A stretch of DNA of 64,000 nucleotides, from positions 1-64,000 of the forward strand of contig JASANC010003603.1 of the NCBI GenBank assembly GCA_030248135.1, written 5' to 3'. The position numbers were made by a program, and so were the translations under genes. Below, in pieces: positions 11,406 to 64,000 of the stretch. The first letter of the stretch is position 1. Each line of letters opens with the position of its first letter. This stretch comes from Theristus sp. LFF4_11 (taxonomy: Eukaryota > Nematoda > Chromadorea > Monhysterida > Xyalidae). The notes under the pieces were generated by a model. The model made no database searches. It worked only from the letters and a program-made list of their open reading frames with translations, and had not been told where the DNA came from.

Positions 11406-12420
11406 ATGTTGCAGAAATTTTCCAAAATGAATTCTCACTGCGTTCTGGTAATATTCAGCATCATACTGCTGGACGCCGCGTTCAGTCAAATCGTCACTGA
11501 CAGACATGGAAACCAGTACCGCAAGGTAAACGCAAAGCAAGGTTTTAATGGTTTATGCTTTTCCTTGGCCGCTTGGCTGTCGAAGGTAAAATGCATAAAA
11601 ACTCTTAACGCAAAAAAAAACTTTCTGACGATTTTCCGCAAACTGATTGTTCATATTTTTTAGTTGGCTCCAAATGAACGTCTGAAGGTCTGCTGTCGGG
11701 GCCCGCTCGGCGCAGGCATGCCGGGCAGCTGCGCCCGTCTGTGCAACTACAACAATCTGAACTTTCCTCAGGTTTGTTTCTCAGATTGCGATCCGAGATT
11801 TTAATGATTTTGGGACTGGGAGCACGCATTTAGTAAACCGTATGGGATGGGCGTACCAGCAGCCGTTTACTTTTGTCAAATCATTGCTATCATTGATTTT
11901 TTTGACGAATCATTCCTTCTCAGTGATTCGAATTGAGTTTTGAAACAAAAAATGACAATGAATATAGAAAAACCGAATTTAGTCACTGAATCTCCAAACA
12001 CACGAAGCCGGATTCATTGACGAGTCCAATTTCCTGAACCTCTTTTACCTGGGACGTGATGTTTACTTTTAAAAGAACTCGCACAACATTGCGCCAAAAA
12101 AAGCGTATCGATTGCAGCTGAACGCCGCATTCAGCGGCCGCCAGTGCCAGTCGCACCACTGGATCGGCATGTTCACGTGCGTCACACGACGCAAGAATCA
12201 CATCGGCTGCTGTCGGTCGCGCGGCGTGCCTCAGCTGTGCTATCCGTTCTGCGACTCGTCGCGCATGTACAACATCGGCGATCCGAACAAATATCTGTCG
12301 TGCGCTGTTTGGCACATGGACAAGATCGTCTCGTGCGCGCACGACTACGACCGGACACATCCGGCCTATGCGCGCGTCTACGGGGGCAGCCGACGGGTGC
12401 ACCCGTTCGGAATGGCCTGA
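11406..12420 (+). CDS. Secreted DB-module protein 2
   Basis: Three exons, all phase 0: 11406-11525, 11664-11771, 12118-12420 (176 aa). The first exon gives a signal peptide (HCVLVIFSIILLDAAFS) and the DRHGNQYRK stretch shared with its neighbours. An in-frame ATG at 11427 is an equally good start. The DB module shows VCCRGP, CARLCNYNN, CQSHHW, CVTRRKNH, GCC, LCYPFC and SCAVWHMDKIVSCAHDY. It is the closest paralogue of DB1, lacks the DB1 third intron and has the same total length. The acceptors are TTTTTAG and CGATTGCAG. It is probably an extracellular structural or surface protein, which is an inference from the family. Confidence 0.87.
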
Positions 12421-53118: not shown

Positions 53119-56100
53119 ATGCACTACCATTTATTTTCGCTCATTGCCTCAATCGTCATTCCCCTGTCCAGCACGCGGCAGGAGTTGCAACCGGCTGACT
53201 GCGTCGACAAACACGAAGTCTGTTATTATCAATTTTTTGGAGGGTTCTGCGACTCCTCAGACCTCAATGCGTGTTCAGACTTAGAAAGGAATCTAATCTC
53301 TATCGTTATGGGGCAATTGAAAATAGCCTGAGTGACCCCGGCCCTATTTAGGAGACTCGGAGCACTTTGCCAATTTTGAATTCCCGCGTCATGCATGAAA
53401 CTATTTACCTCATCTATGCACGCGTTGAGTCTCGCGACCAAAATTCTTGCGCCCTCTCTGCGATTAAATTTTTGGTGACCATCAACAAAAATAAAATCAC
53501 TTCTTAGACTTCTCAGCAAGTAATCGCTGATCGCTGCATAATGAAAATGTAACCAAATTGCTGGACAGGTTTTGTGACCTGCCACAGTAAATGACGACGA
53601 GTTCACGATTCGGACTGGAAATATATAACTCCAGAATGTCTCCCGTAAACTGTAGAAGTTATTTTTAGTTTTTTTTCATGGTCACCAAAGTGGGCACTAA
53701 GAGGGCACAAGGGGCACCAAAAGAAACACCAAGACTCAAGAGGGATTATTTTTTTGCGGTCACTAATTTGGTGCTTTGTTTTTTGTAGCGCGATTTTCGA
53801 CTTAAGATTCTGAAGCAATGTTTGTTTTATGTTGTCAATTTTTTTGCCTTTTTACAGCAATTCTTCAACCCCTGAAAACATTTCAGCGATGTTGCTTTTG
53901 GGCGGCGACCAACGAATGTTTCACCAACCGCATGTACATGGCGGAGTTCTGTCCTCGTTCATGCAGCATCTGCAACTGTAAAGGTGACCATTTCTAAAGG
54001 TTGTTTTGTTTCAAGTGATCTTTCTTTTGTCGCTTCTACTGTATCAATTGATTTGAAAAAAAAGAACCAAACTGCAAAATACGTCTGTGCAAAGAACGGG
54101 ATATCACCACACAGAATTGAACAAGTACTCATGTCCAATGTCCGTATCGCCCGAATGCAAACTGGGACCGGGCGAAATCGGCATTCCAAACAATCCGGAT
54201 GCCGATCCGATTCCGTCGCCAGTCGTTGATCCCGTCTGCGGTGACAGATACATCGTGCGTTTTTTTATCATAAATTGTTCAACGCTATTAACTTTGTTTT
54301 TTAGGAAATTTCAAAATACAACAACCAATATAACAGTTTTCAAAACCATCAAGATACAGTTTCCCATTACCACACGAGAAGTGGAAATGTTGCACGACTC
54401 AGTACGTGATTGTAATTGTTTTTCACTCAAAAACGAAGTGCAATTGTCGGTCGGACACTTTTGACGTGTGTTTGTTTTCAAATCAAGGGTTTTCAACTCG
54501 GTTGAACAAATCTTGTTACAGGACTGCTGCGCATGGCAGAAACGGGGATTTTGCAAGACAAATCCATTTTTCATGCGACCGAACTGTCAGAAGGCTTGCG
54601 GTACCTGCGGTTGCACATGTTAGTTAAAAATTATTTTTTAAGTTCATGTTTGTTTGTTCTGGAAGTTTTTGTAAGGTGTTTCGTGAAAAACACTCCAGTA
54701 GTTTACGTGTGCACTGGTCCCGCTGAGAAAATTCACCGAGTCCAAATCCGGGTCGCGTTCGAGTCAGAATTTTGTAAAAATGAGCAACTGACCATTTTCT
54801 AAGCACAAGACAAGACTCACCGTTGAAACAGTTGGAAATTCCACAAATTTCGGCTACAGACAGACTCGGCCAGATACGGACGATTTTTTAGCGTGTACCG
54901 AATACCGATAGGGATTATAGGTCAATCAAAAAGTCCACTTGTGTGTGTTTCCGTCATTTGTGTGTGCGTTTTTTCTCCGATTCTCAGTGCAAACGGCGTT
55001 GCTGAACGACTGTCACCCGAAGGAGACCGGCTGTGCGGAGCAGGTGGTGGCCGCATTTGGCGACGTCACCATCAACGGGAAGCACAGTGTGGACGCGAGC
55101 GAGCTGTTCCTGTTGCAGCAGGTGACCACGACACGCAACGGGCGCGCGCAGCCGCCGGGGCCGTCGCTCAGCGATCTCTCCGATGGTTAGCTGTACAGTG
55201 GCTTTGTTGGAACCTGTCACTTCTTTCGCAAAATACAGAGCACATGAATAAAGAGATAAATACGAAACCGGAGTTGCCAGAAGTCATATTTAGTCACATC
55301 ACAACTATGGTGTTTGCTTTCTTACTGTTACTTCTTTTTACTTGTATTCAAAGGTTCGCGTGCTTCGTATTGTGCGAAAGAAATACCGTAAAGTCTTGCA
55401 TATAAGGTTCCTCCCACTTATAAGACCCCCACCCAAAAGTGGGCGGAGTGTCACACGGCGGGAAACCAAAAAATTCAAAATTTTGACTTGGTCGAAATCC
55501 TACCCCGTTTATAAGGCCCGGAATTCCTAATGTTCGCTTTATAAGACCTCCTCCCACTTATAAGGCTGTCACACGAAATTCCACTTTTTTCAGAAATTTT
55601 TGATTTTCAATTTTGTATAAGGAGACCTTATATGCAAGACTTTACGGTACTGACAGGTGTAAGCAAGCTTGTGCGAATAAAAGCCTACTCGAGTAACAGC
55701 ACTTTTTTCTGCCACTGCTTCTGCTTTGAGACCTTTGTGTTTTGTACTGTAGGGGTTTGATTTTCGTAGCTGCGTCGCTTTCCCCACAGCGGTGTTGCAA
55801 CACGTTCGCATTCATTCCGTCTCCATTCTTCTCCATTTCAGTCTCGGAAAAGATCATCACGTAACAAAACTTGCAGTCGAACTGAACAGTCCGCACCGTC
55901 GATGCACGCTCGAAGCGCCCGTTCAGCAGTCCGTGTTGAACTGCCGGAAACCCGTGCGCCGACGAATGTGGACGTGGGTGCCGGCGCACCACGAATGTCT
56001 TGCGATCGCTCTGCTGGTCTGCGCCGACTTCGACATCAGAATCGTGAACGCGTTCGAGACGTGGGGCGAGTGTAACATCTGTAAACCGGGTGAGCAGTGT

Positions 56101-58666
56101 TTACTTTGTTTGGTGTTCGCTCGGAAAAAAGTGTTCGTGTTCAAACATTTTGTTCAAGGATGAAATTGTACACCCGAAAGCTTTTTTATCGCGCTTCCAC
56201 TTGACAATTCTAAGAGAAGTCTAGTGCAAACGGTGGCGTCAGCATTTACGCAAGGGTAAACTATAAAATTTTAGTCTTCTCGAAACGAGTCTCTGCCTCC
56301 AAACATAGGAAAAATTCTAAAATTCGCCTTTTATCTTCCAGCGGACAGCCCGACGTGTGCGGGCAACAGTGAGCCAGCGAAGGACGTACTTGGCGAGCAA
56401 GTGCTCTGCAACTTCGGTGGTCCGAACAGCGGTGCCTGTCCACCGGGGTACATCTGTCGCATGGGCGCATTCTTCGGCTCCTGTTGCCAGCAGAACAGCG
56501 AAGGTTTGCGGGTTTGTTTTTGCAAAGTGTAGCAAAAAATCGCTGCTTATTTGCTTTGGTGGTAACAAAAACACATTTTTTATTATCATGCAGCACTGTA
56601 CGCACGGAATTACGAGCCAAAGTGCAAATCGATCAATGCAAACGGTGAAGAGAATCTCACTGATCCGGTGACAATGACAGACAATGGGGTGCCGTTGGTT
56701 CTGCTCGGCAGGTGAAATACTTCGTTTTGTTTGCTTCGTTTATTTGTTCCACTAATCTCTTTACACATTTTATGTCAAGATCATATGTGCAGTATACGTA
56801 GTTTCCGCTGACAATGCACACGGTTATGAGTGTGACACAGTATTTGTTGCACATCAATCACAAAAACACACGTTCACACACACAACATGAGTTGTATTAT
56901 AGCGCATGTGAGCCGGTTGCCAGTGTGTTTGTTGGTGACTCTGCATTAATACAGGGGTTAGAAGAACCAACTGCACTTTTTCAAAAAAGTTCTACATACT
57001 ATCCAACCAGTGGTGCATTTTGAATCCTGATTACTCCGATATGTGCATCATCAACACGCAGTGCACTGTGTTTGCATAGCCGAATGAAAAAAAATTGCCA
57101 GAGTTTTTCTTGGATAGCTGGAACAAATGCGCCCCACACCACTGTTTTTTCTGTTCGTTCCAGATCGTGTGACGACATCTTCTGTCCGGTGAACACGAAC
57201 TGCGTCCAGATGGAGCTGTTCGCGCATTGTTGCCAGCAGTCGCCCGCCGCCACTGATCCATTGCAGTCGCGCCAGCTGCACGTGCAACCGATCAAGACCG
57301 CGTTCGCACACGACAGCGACCGCGGCATTGCCGTCATCAGACAGGGTGCGCCACTGTTGTTTTCTATACCAGCGAAATGTGCCGCACGTTATTAGCAAAA
57401 ACGCAGTCGATTTGCAAGCCGTTTCCGACTTGTCGCGTAATCTGTTTCAACCGTCGAACTCTAAATTACCGGCTGTCAGCTAATTGGTCGGAGATCACGT
57501 GACGCATGCTTAGGCTTAGGCTTAGGCTGACAGGACAGAGACTCCCGCCTCTGCACAGAAGGCATGCATCACACGTGACCACCAACCAATCAGCTGTCAG
57601 TCTTATAATCCATCATTCGACCGTACCAATGTTGCGGTTTGTTCCGTCGCGCGGCAGGCGGTCGAAGCGCCGAGGCGCACCTGCTGCGGGTGCACGTGAC
57701 GGGCAGCTGGCTGCTGATCGCGGGTCGTGTCGTGTTCGAGGAGACCGCCGACGATGCGGTGCGTGTGTCCGGCTACGTGCGCGGTCTGCGGCCCGGTCGG
57801 CACGGTTTTCACGTGCACGCGAAGGGCACCATCAATTGCACGGACGCTGGCGGACACTTCAACCCGACCGATCAGCCGCACGGCGCACGCGAGTCGACCG
57901 TGCGACACGTCGGCGACCTCGGCAACATCGAGGCCGACGTGGACGGTGTGGCCGTGTTCAGGTGGGAAACGTGCATGCGATGCATGTTACGGGACATGTT
58001 ATGTGACATGTTATGTGACATGTTATGTGACATGTTATGTGACATGTTATGTGACATGTTATGTGACATGTTATGTGACATGTTATGTGACATGTTATGT
58101 GACATGTTATGTAACATGTTATGTGACATGTTATGTGACATGTTATGTGACATGTTATGTGACATGTTATGTGACATGTTATGTGACATATTATGTGACA
58201 TATTATGTAACATGTTATGTGACATGTTATGTGACATGTTATGTGACATGTTATGTGACATGTTACGTGACATGTTATGCTACCACGCTACATGCTACGC
58301 TACATGCTACGCTGCTGTTGACCACTGATCAAGAAAGTATGCTGCAAGTAAACGTGGCAACATGTTGTTGTTTGTTTCAATGTTTCGTCTGGCTGAAGCT
58401 CAAGTCAAAGTCCGAACTATTTTCTCGCGCCTGCGGCCCGTGAACTATTCGCCAGCAAATCAAATAAAAAACAGGTGCACCAACTGTATTGCAGTTTTGT
58501 CGATCGAACGATCAAGTTGAGTGGTGCGCACAGTATCGCCGGGCGTGCACTGGTCGTCCACAAGGGCGAGGACGACGAGGGTCGTGGTGGCAACGAGCAA
58601 AGCCGCCAGACCGGCAACGCCGGCGCGCGCTTTGCCTGCGGCGTCATTGGCATTATGGAGCAGTGA
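53119..58666 (+). CDS. Secreted ShKT-ShKT-Kunitz-like-lustrin-Cu/Zn superoxide dismutase fusion
   Basis: Eleven exons in unbroken phase (593 aa): 53119-53217, 53887-53983, 54115-54254, 54522-54618, 54988-55185, 55877-56089, 56342-56503, 56594-56711, 57164-57345, 57658-57961, 58495-58666. A signal peptide leads to two ShKT modules (residues 28-63, CVDKHERCC ... CPRSCSIC; 107-141, CGDRYIDCC ... CQKACGTC). A divergent Kunitz-like module follows (220-279, with WTW and NAFETWGEC), then two lustrin-type modules (CPPGYIC..CCQQ; CPVNTNC..CCQQ). The C-terminal SOD domain (441-593) has all metal ligands: H487, H489, H502, H510, H519, D522, H559. It also keeps the C496-C585 disulfide and R582. It should dismutate superoxide outside the cell. 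The module combination is unusual. Exon 1 donor choice (GAA|GTCTGT) is supported by the restored ShKT spacing. Confidence 0.83.
55386..55647. mobile_element. MITE (CCGTAAAGTCTTGCATATAAGG TIRs) in SOD-fusion intron 5
   Basis: CCGTAAAGTCTTGCATATAA and its inverse TTATATGCAAGACTTTACGG bound the element, with TA on both sides (55384-55385, 55648-55649). The interior has repeated CTCCCACTTATAAG. A diverged longer relative is at 16318-16953. Confidence 0.85.
57452..57623. mobile_element. MITE (GTCGAACTCTAAATTA family) in SOD-fusion intron 9
   Basis: CGTCGAACTCTAAATTACC on the left and CCAATCAGCTGTCAG ... CATTCGACCG on the right. Its centre contains three exact TTAGGC units (57510-57527), the nematode telomere repeat. 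It ends about 35 bases before exon 10. Confidence 0.78.
57983..58280 (+). repeat. 12-bp minisatellite (TGTGACATGTTA)n in the SOD intron
   Basis: About 25 nearly identical 12-bp units fill the intron between exons 10 and 11, starting 21 bases after the donor. Because the unit is a multiple of three, frames on both strands stay open (for example CDMLCDML), which produces false long ORFs of 130-240 codons. Confidence 0.93.
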
Positions 58667-61463: not shown

Positions 61464-62057
61464 TCATATTAAGTTCCAGAATAAGATACTGTTTGGTTTG
61501 GAGCAATTCCTTTGACTCTTATGGTTGTTATCTTTAGTTCCAGAATTTTGTTTAGAGCGATTGCTTTGACCGTGGTTACTGTCTTGAGTTCCAGTATGTT
61601 GTTTGAAGCAACTGCTTTGACCATGGTTGTTAACTTGAGTGCCAGGATGTTGTTTGAAGCAACTGCTTTGACCATGGTTGTTCACTTGAGTTCCAGTATG
61701 TTGTTTGAAGCAACTGCTTTGACCATGGTTGTTCACTTGAGTTCCAGTGGTACTGCTTTGACCATGGTTGTTAACTTGAGTGCCAGGATGTTGTTTGAAG
61801 CAACTGCTTTGACCATGGTTGTTCACTTGAGTTCCAGTATGTTGTTTGAAGCAACTGCTTTGACCATGGTTGTTCACTTGAGTTCCAGTATGTTGTTTGA
61901 AGCAACTGCTTTGACCGTGGTTGTTCACTTGAGTTCCAGTGAAGCAACTGCTTTGACCATGGTTGTTCACTTGAGTTCCAGTATGTTGTTTGAAGCAACT
62001 GCTTTTTGACCATGGTTGTTCACTTGAGTTCCAGACCAAGCACAATGTTTGGAGCAA
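61464..62057 (-). CDS. Possible 17-residue-repeat protein encoded by a 51-bp minisatellite
   Basis: The minus strand has one open frame of 197 codons, made of about ten copies of a 17-residue unit (FKQHTGTQVNNHGQSSC) that degrade toward both ends. Two shortened units (near 61745 and 61938) have lost multiples of three bases and keep the frame. The plus strand is also open for 165 codons across the same repeats, so frame maintenance alone is weak evidence. No splice sites, signal peptide or known domain. It may be an expressed Asn/Gln/His-rich repeat protein or just a minisatellite. Confidence 0.3.
   Translation of the reverse strand: MLQTLCLVWNSSEQPWSKSSCFKQHTGTQVNNHGQSSCFTGTQVNNHGQSSCFKQHTGTQVNNHGQSSCFKQHTGTQVNNHGQSSCFKQHPGTQVNNHGQSSTTGTQVNNHGQSSCFKQHTGTQVNNHGQSSCFKQHPGTQVNNHGQSSCFKQHTGTQDSNHGQSNRSKQNSGTKDNNHKSQRNCSKPNSILFWNLI
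61530..62035. repeat. 51-bp minisatellite
   Basis: The unit is TTGTTTGAAGCAACTGCTTT followed by GACCATGGTTGTTCACTTGA and GTTCCAGTATG. It has about 10 copies, two of them internally deleted, and one has an extra T (near 62006). Confidence 0.9.
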
Positions 62058-62873: not shown

Positions 62874-64000
62874 CATCGCCATGACAAACTTTTACGACTT
62901 CCACCCAGAGAAAAACAAAACAGAACAGTCGTCGGAATTGTTCAGTCGGCTGTTTTACGCAAGTACACCAAACTGTTCTCATTCATGATAATCGTCATTG
63001 TCCTTTTTTGTGCGGTTTTTAAAAACCCACTGTTAAAAGTGAAATCGTTTGCTCACTGGTTGGTGATAACAAACCATAAAGGGGAAGACATACGGGAGAC
63101 GCTGACAGACACGCGTAAACATAACAGGTAATCATTTAGGTGAATCACGGTGAAACGGTTGTTGAAAATTGTATTGTTGAAAATTGTATTGTATTTCAGT
63201 AGTTTGGTTTTGGTGATGTGATATTTAGCACAGATAGGACAAAAATATAAAATATTTCACTCAAATTAGCAGATGTTTATGTCATGGCTCCAGTAGTGCG
63301 GAAATATGAAAAAACAAAGCAAATCGAACTTTGCGCGATAATTTTGTTGACATTTGGCATGCATGCGCTCAGCAGACTCATAAATCTTCATAGAACAAGA
63401 ATTGGTCTGCCTGTCTTGCCTTCTGTTTTATGTGAAACTTGACAAAAATCACATTTGATTTCCCTTTTTCTGTTTCTTCAATAATCTCTTATTCAGTTGA
63501 CTTTTTTGTCTATACGTATGCGTCTTTTACTTCATTAATGTTTTGAAAATATCCGTGAATAACACCAATAATAATTTCTGTGGGTGCACCATTTTTATCT
63601 CACCACGCAGTAGTTTCTTTCGCTGTCGATGGATTTGCTGTTTTCACTTTTTTAACCGATTTTTACAAAACTATTGTTTTGGCTCACACGAATGTAAATC
63701 TTTCGTTGACTTTTGATTGCATAGTGCGTCGTCGAGAGCACGTTTGTTTGTGCCGTACTTCTTGTGTGGACCTCCAGTGGAGTTTCCCATTAAATTACAG
63801 CCAAACGCCAAAAGAAAATATGCGAAAAAAAATTCTAATCGTTTGCCCTTTAGAACTGCCTCCGCATGCACTCCAAAGCATTTATGGTTCAATGGCAAGA
63901 GGAAAAGCAATTTCTAAGGTTGAATTTTCTTTTTCAGATAAAAAAATCACACAAAAAAGGCAGCGAAAAGGACACCACACGAACACTGCCAACATGATTG
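62874..64000 (+). CDS. 5' part of a possible type II membrane protein gene (runs off the window)
   Basis: An open stretch ending at 63125 before a GTAATC donor encodes YTKLFSFMIIVIVLFCAVF, a strong hydrophobic anchor near an N-terminus, followed by a lumenal-looking HWLVITNHKGEDIRETLTD. The start is unresolved: Met at 62982 in the anchor frame, or an upstream exon joined at TTGTTCAG near 62950. A candidate second exon begins after GATTGCATAG (63724) and another after TTTTCAG near 63937, but two frames are open in the former. The topology would suit a Golgi enzyme. No family motif is visible. Confidence 0.3.

Follow-up and report, generated by a model that had tools for sequence, protein, structure and literature searches.

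Secreted Cu/Zn superoxide dismutases (SODs) are represented by the nematode SOD-4 type and by vertebrate SOD3, and extracellular SODs are usually regarded as either free or held in place by a short charged tail. Other enzymes are combined with ShKT modules. In the sections of the sources used here, nematode peroxidases (MLT-7, SKPO) and the tyrosinase-like TYR are reported to carry ShKT, with a redox link suggested (PMC13273113), metalloproteases, prolyl hydroxylases, tyrosinases, peroxidases and oxidoreductases are given as ShKT carriers (PMC6409789), and a phosphatidylethanolamine-binding protein has two ShKT domains (PMC3611597). Multi-SOD-domain proteins are known from oysters, according to the portion of the source cited (PMC9118643).

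Here we describe a locus in the window, i.e. the whole analysed stretch of 64,000 nucleotides (bases 1-64000 of C2302, a 77,687-base contig from a genome of 159 Mb). Judging from sequence, we consider it rather probable that this locus is one gene for a secreted multidomain Cu/Zn SOD with a full 593-residue product. In order, this product would comprise a signal-peptide-like start, two ShKT modules, a linker, one Kunitz-like module, two lustrin-like modules and, last, a SOD domain whose active site is complete. With the secreted SODs (SOD-4, SOD3) it shares the signal-peptide-like start, the Cu/Zn ligands, the disulfide cysteines and the Arg, but adds an N-terminal ShKT pair and a Kunitz/lustrin-like cassette. 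It resembles the ShKT-bearing peroxidases and tyrosinase-like proteins in having ShKT module(s) ahead of a redox enzyme domain; unlike in MLT-7, SKPO and TYR, this enzyme is a Cu/Zn SOD, which is not among the ShKT carriers named in the part of that source used here (PMC13273113). Oikosin 13 of the Oikopleura house likewise has SOD domains within an extracellular-matrix protein, but belongs to a tunicate and, in the excerpt describing it, has no known domain apart from its two SOD domains (PMC3390340).

Gene model and identity of the modules

The model consists of 11 exons on the forward strand, with GT-AG borders throughout, which are spliced in phase into 1782 nt (593 aa) without a stop; the length and open frame given in the initial annotation were thus reproduced exactly. 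Exon 1 (53119..53217) encodes a hydrophobic, signal-peptide-like start and the first part of ShKT1 (CVDKHE), and ends in phase 0. The same CVDKHE ends exon 1 of a tandem paralogue downstream, the start of which is similarly hydrophobic (both starts as they appear in the translations). The remainder of ShKT1 is in exon 2 (53887..53983). Exon 3 (54115..54254), whose acceptor is backed by E-x-N-K...C in the paralogue, contains a Cys-containing linker and the first part of ShKT2 (CGDRYI), and exon 4 (54522..54618) the rest of it. When 24 combinations with other donors and acceptors were tried around exons 2, 3 and 4, three stayed open, differing solely in the exon 4 donor. Exon 5 (54988..55185) is a linker entered and left in phase 1, the start of which resembles the paralogue and a Pro-rich ShKT gene on contig C751. 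A divergent Kunitz-like module with six Cys (exon 6, 55877..56089) and the first lustrin-like module (exon 7, 56342..56503) follow, both flanked by phase 1 on either side. The second lustrin-like module is divided between exon 8 (56594..56711) and exon 9 (57164..57345), the latter also encoding a linker and ending in phase 1. Finally, exon 10 (57658..57961) encodes the first part of the Cu/Zn SOD and exon 11 (58495..58666) its last part and the stop. Two further claims of the initial annotation hold in this model, namely that each ShKT module is completed only by splicing (exons 1+2 and 3+4) and that the second lustrin module is split by an intron (exons 8/9). In intron 10, a 12-bp tandem repeat, CATGTTATGTGA, is present in about 25 copies (57983-58279).

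Left unspliced, exon 4 would end in TGC ACA TGT TAG, as the sequence after ShKT2, GTTAGT (54619..54624, forward strand), contains an in-frame TAG at 54621-54623. At the same position the paralogue has GTGAGT and the C751 gene GTAAGT, and a similar exon start follows in all three genes, so GTTAGT is read as a donor. Translation stop at this TAG was ruled out by the ordinary donors in the homologous exons of the two other genes. On C751 (34000-36400), the ShKT-pair exon set apparently belongs to the same gene as the long Pro-rich repeats next to it.

In a Pfam search with the whole protein, ShK (PF01549) reached 53.2 bits in two stretches (cut-off 20.9, E 4.2e-14) and Sod_Cu (PF00080) 150.6 bits (cut-off 28.9, E 4.3e-44), covering positions 2-133 of the 133 in the profile. 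We take the roles and numbering of the SOD residues (Cu/Zn ligands, C57-C146, R143) to be the customary ones. Aligned to a reference row that has an engineered S at 83, the SOD domain keeps equivalents of all Cu ligands (H46, H48, H63, H120), all Zn ligands (H63, shared with Cu, H71, H80, D83), the disulfide C57/C146 and the active-site R143. The domain is therefore as complete in metal ligands, disulfide and active-site Arg as originally proposed.

As for the remaining module labels, ShKT stood as assigned, while Kunitz was recovered via relatives only and lustrin by one sub-threshold match. The whole-protein Pfam search gave no Kunitz or lustrin at E<=10, a setting at which HMMER filters discard most matches above 0.1, and the Kunitz exon alone gave no match to PF00014 at E<=10. 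Nine relatives of this exon were listed and seven tested: one exceeded the PF00014 cut-off (26.8 bits), four fell below it at E 0.003-0.03, and two, including the closest relative, on contig C3462, had no Kunitz match. A family of eight Kunitz-like sequences aligned by hhalign to three Kunitz domains at 92% (E 5e-7). In a PDB profile search, 24 of 26 matches were Kunitz-type judging by name, with a weak best E of 0.017. The exon has its six Cys in Kunitz order with altered spacing, and AlphaFold gave it, when folded alone, a mean pLDDT of 49.5. Because the window exon itself has no PF00014 match, we call it Kunitz-like and not a Kunitz member. Given the altered Cys spacing and the lack of a family-level score, the proposed inhibition of host proteases by this part is a guess. 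The lustrin region alone matched Lustrin_cystein (PF14625) in module 1 only, at 20.4 bits (E 6.5e-4); as this sole match is under the cut-off of 27, exons 7-9 are named lustrin-like. A relative's lustrin-like region on C3178 had no lustrin match by Pfam.

The tandem paralogue and the Kunitz-lustrin cassette

The paralogue begins with the last seven bases of the window (63994..64000, forward strand), by the end of which it is truncated; the whole gene occupies C2302:63994-68255 and has eight exons. A 51-bp tandem repeat array (61496-62034) is located between the two SOD genes. In phase, the paralogue encodes 380 residues with a hydrophobic start, two ShKT modules, a similar linker, a Thr/Pro-rich stretch and SOD. 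It is devoid of Kunitz and lustrin exons, and its exon 5 is spliced to SOD through a phase-1 intron. Exons 1-5 and the SOD exons have the same order and phases in both genes, which are 53% identical over 153 codons of the ShKT blocks and 61% identical over 155 of the SOD blocks. In all five exon-block comparisons with relatives, the third codon position was the one that differed most. The repeated order and phases and the excess at codon position 3 suggest that the window exon chain is more than chance. From sequence alone, a secreted-looking ShKT-SOD fusion, backed by the tandem paralogue, is likely.

A near-identical copy of the paralogue is present on contig C2624, with all exons open and GT/AG signals kept. 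Its 1143 coding bases show four substitutions and a single 3-nt indel, its introns 30 differences over 3083 aligned bases, and it is identical from exon 6 on. It is probably the other allele. From position 11647 on, C2624 matches C2302 at 96-98%, with two breaks, starting at C2302 position 62420. Repeats aside, C2624:1-11646 has no match to this part of C2302, and the window gene is absent from C2624, a point against the one-gene model; since these first 11.6 kb are unmatched, the window gene has no allele with which to compare it. The loss of collinearity upstream of the paralogue suggests that the haplotypes differ in structure on a large scale here or that the assembly contains a join.

The block of exons 6-9 is symmetric, being entered and left in phase 1. 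In the preferred reading, the window gene would be one of two tandem ShKT-SOD genes, and its Kunitz-lustrin cassette would occupy the phase-1 intron which in the sister gene links the ShKT linker directly to SOD, a position that exon shuffling would predict. The simplest reading of the sequences is that the cassette was inserted into this intron or was lost from the sister gene. Similar exons occur elsewhere in the genome, on C3462 and C758, with the same Kunitz-lustrin-lustrin order and similar exon borders. Unlike those of the window, they are on contigs without a SOD match, have a signal-peptide-like exon immediately ahead and are duplicated as a set. On C3462, the exons after this signal-peptide-like one are Kunitz-like and lustrin-like, with borders that read as phase 1, and two copies of the set lie on the same strand within about 4 kb.

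Alternative gene structures

The one-gene model has to be weighed mainly against a division into two adjacent genes at intron 5, which we regard as rather unlikely. In this arrangement, gene A would be a ShKT-pair protein of 211 aa ending at TAG 55188-55190 in the unspliced exon 5 frame, and gene B a Kunitz-lustrin-SOD of 410 aa with its ATG at 55307 and a splice from 55353 to 55842. The locus could be two genes because three features are present in intron 5: a signal-peptide-like ORF, an AATAAA at 55247, past the exon 5 TAG, and a donor/acceptor pair (55353/55842) that scores 8.5/9.5, whereas the exon 5 donor and exon 6 acceptor of the one-gene model reach 6.6/6.4. The scoring was trained on a small hand-picked set (22 donors and 21 acceptors, eight of each from the window gene). 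Gene B also stays open through to the SOD stop. However, both the ORF from 55307 and the AATAAA lie inside an old interspersed repeat (55193..55382, no strand assigned), with 43 genomic matches to 55186-55383, its own copy included, and six other genomic places with 67-69% identity cover the ORF stretch. Among 500 Markov-resampled sequences, 189 contained comparable ORFs by chance; AATAAA turned up in 130 of 500. Against the division also stand the Kunitz exon of the relative on C3462, which read from sequence is apparently entered in phase 1 and not phase 2, and the paralogue, which joins the homologous exon 5 to SOD in phase 1 and in whose intron 5 neither a signal-peptide-like ORF with a phase-1 donor nor AATAAA was found. 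If the division were true, this locus would still have a Kunitz-lustrin-SOD fusion, and the paralogue would still join ShKT to SOD. Next to the old repeat, intron 5 also contains a recent MITE-like insertion (55384..55649, no strand assigned), whose terminal inverted repeats are perfect over 25 nt. At least 39 further copies in the genome are 96-99% identical to it (among the best 40 of 1902 candidates, which were scored), so the element was probably recently active.

Alternative splicing or two promoters could include or omit exons 6-9, yielding both the 593-aa form and a ShKT-SOD of 368 aa; we assign this a low probability. Skipping the symmetric 1-1 block preserves the frame, which makes a short form like the sister gene possible, and the paralogue represents such a form. 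That the locus is a non-functional duplicate, open by chance, is very improbable: a single copy of the window gene was found in the assembly and its intron 5 carries two repeats, but the spliced frame is stop-free, the active site is complete and the third-position excess was seen in five of five comparisons. We can hardly credit a separate SOD gene that starts near exon 10 and is unrelated to the upstream exons. It would be favoured by the weak exon 10 acceptor (1.9 bits; four of the 21 training acceptors score lower), although no other acceptor was found in phase without a stop. Yet the SOD frame has no ATG between the upstream in-frame stop and exon 10, intron 9 contains no signal-peptide-like ORF with a phase-1 donor, and ShKT is joined to SOD in the paralogue. 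An own SOD gene at exon 10, which the initial annotation had named as refuting the fusion, was thus rejected, as no start for it was found.

Comparison with known proteins and with the rest of the genome

In a search of 5.8 billion proteins, 5575 candidates for the 593-aa protein included 31 matches at E<=0.001; for the paralogue, 2606 candidates included 245 matches at E<=0.01, 120 of which were listed. By precomputed Pfam annotation, none of the matches listed from both searches has ShK and SOD in one protein, and a ShKT pattern scan of 149 fetched proteins returned only P0031, a prolyl hydroxylase. For region 208-440, the same 5.8 billion proteins gave nothing at E<=1 among 575 candidates. 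The initial annotation was aware of no reported protein with a complete Cu/Zn SOD behind these modules. P0001 and P0011, two public predicted proteins of 761 and 543 aa, are alike in having Kunitz beside SOD, but differ in their several SOD stretches, a Kunitz over the Pfam cut-off and no ShK or lustrin at E<=0.1. In the searched portions of open-licence full texts, no protein was reported to combine ShKT with SOD. Among these proteins and texts, we thus met no earlier account of ShKT modules joined to a complete SOD.

Of the initially proposed secreted ShKT/Kunitz/lustrin-SOD fusion, the secreted-looking ShKT-SOD part is borne out by the paralogue, and the presence of all modules in one transcript is likely only. 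According to the proposed mechanism, all modules would be encoded on one transcript, the protein would be exported, its SOD would clear superoxide outside cells, and the Cys-rich modules might serve as anchors or adaptors keeping the enzyme on cuticle, matrix or secretions. Tentatively, Cu/Zn SOD may join peroxidases and tyrosinases as another class of redox enzyme tethered by ShKT, a proposal that, taken jointly with its consequences, is possible though doubtful. If true, a whole extracellular chain, leading from superoxide via peroxide to cross-linking, would be placed on a single matrix by ShKT modules, and the tandem pair, with an exon-shuffled Kunitz-lustrin cassette in one copy, would provide two targeted enzyme forms. 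A SOD on ShKT and matrix-type modules would offer a genetic handle on the site of extracellular superoxide removal in nematodes, and the tandem pair, of which one member has the symmetric phase-1 cassette and the other lacks it, offers a clean case for studying exon shuffling.

A profile search of the genome yielded 34 Sod_Cu matches, counted per exon, on 16 contigs, and a ShKT search 163 matches (150 of 171 candidates scored). Among the 16 SOD contigs, only C2302 and C2624 also have a ShKT match among the matches listed, and only C2302 matches a Kunitz- or lustrin-like query (8 and 41 genome matches, respectively); all these counts are lower bounds, because the contigs are fragmentary and the best candidates alone were scored. 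Two other SOD genes with hydrophobic starts, on C3009, had no ShKT pattern in the scanned stretches, which counts against the preferred model. In a SOD tree of 15 rows, the window gene and the paralogue group with C3009a/b and C233 (80/74); this tree does not settle whether the two are sisters, and its C1236 branch is very long. The C233 SOD paralogue (L015 9468-9722, L016 1214-1369) is probably no active SOD, because Asp replaces the bridging His and Pro the active-site Arg. The exact SL1 22-mer was absent from the genome, and RF00198 had no match, nor was any control genome positive. As fits a nematode, the genome contains 84 cuticle-collagen (Col_cuticle_N) and 8 TTR-52 matches. Six SOD-like matches are located on a single contig, C2281, perhaps reflecting a local SOD expansion.
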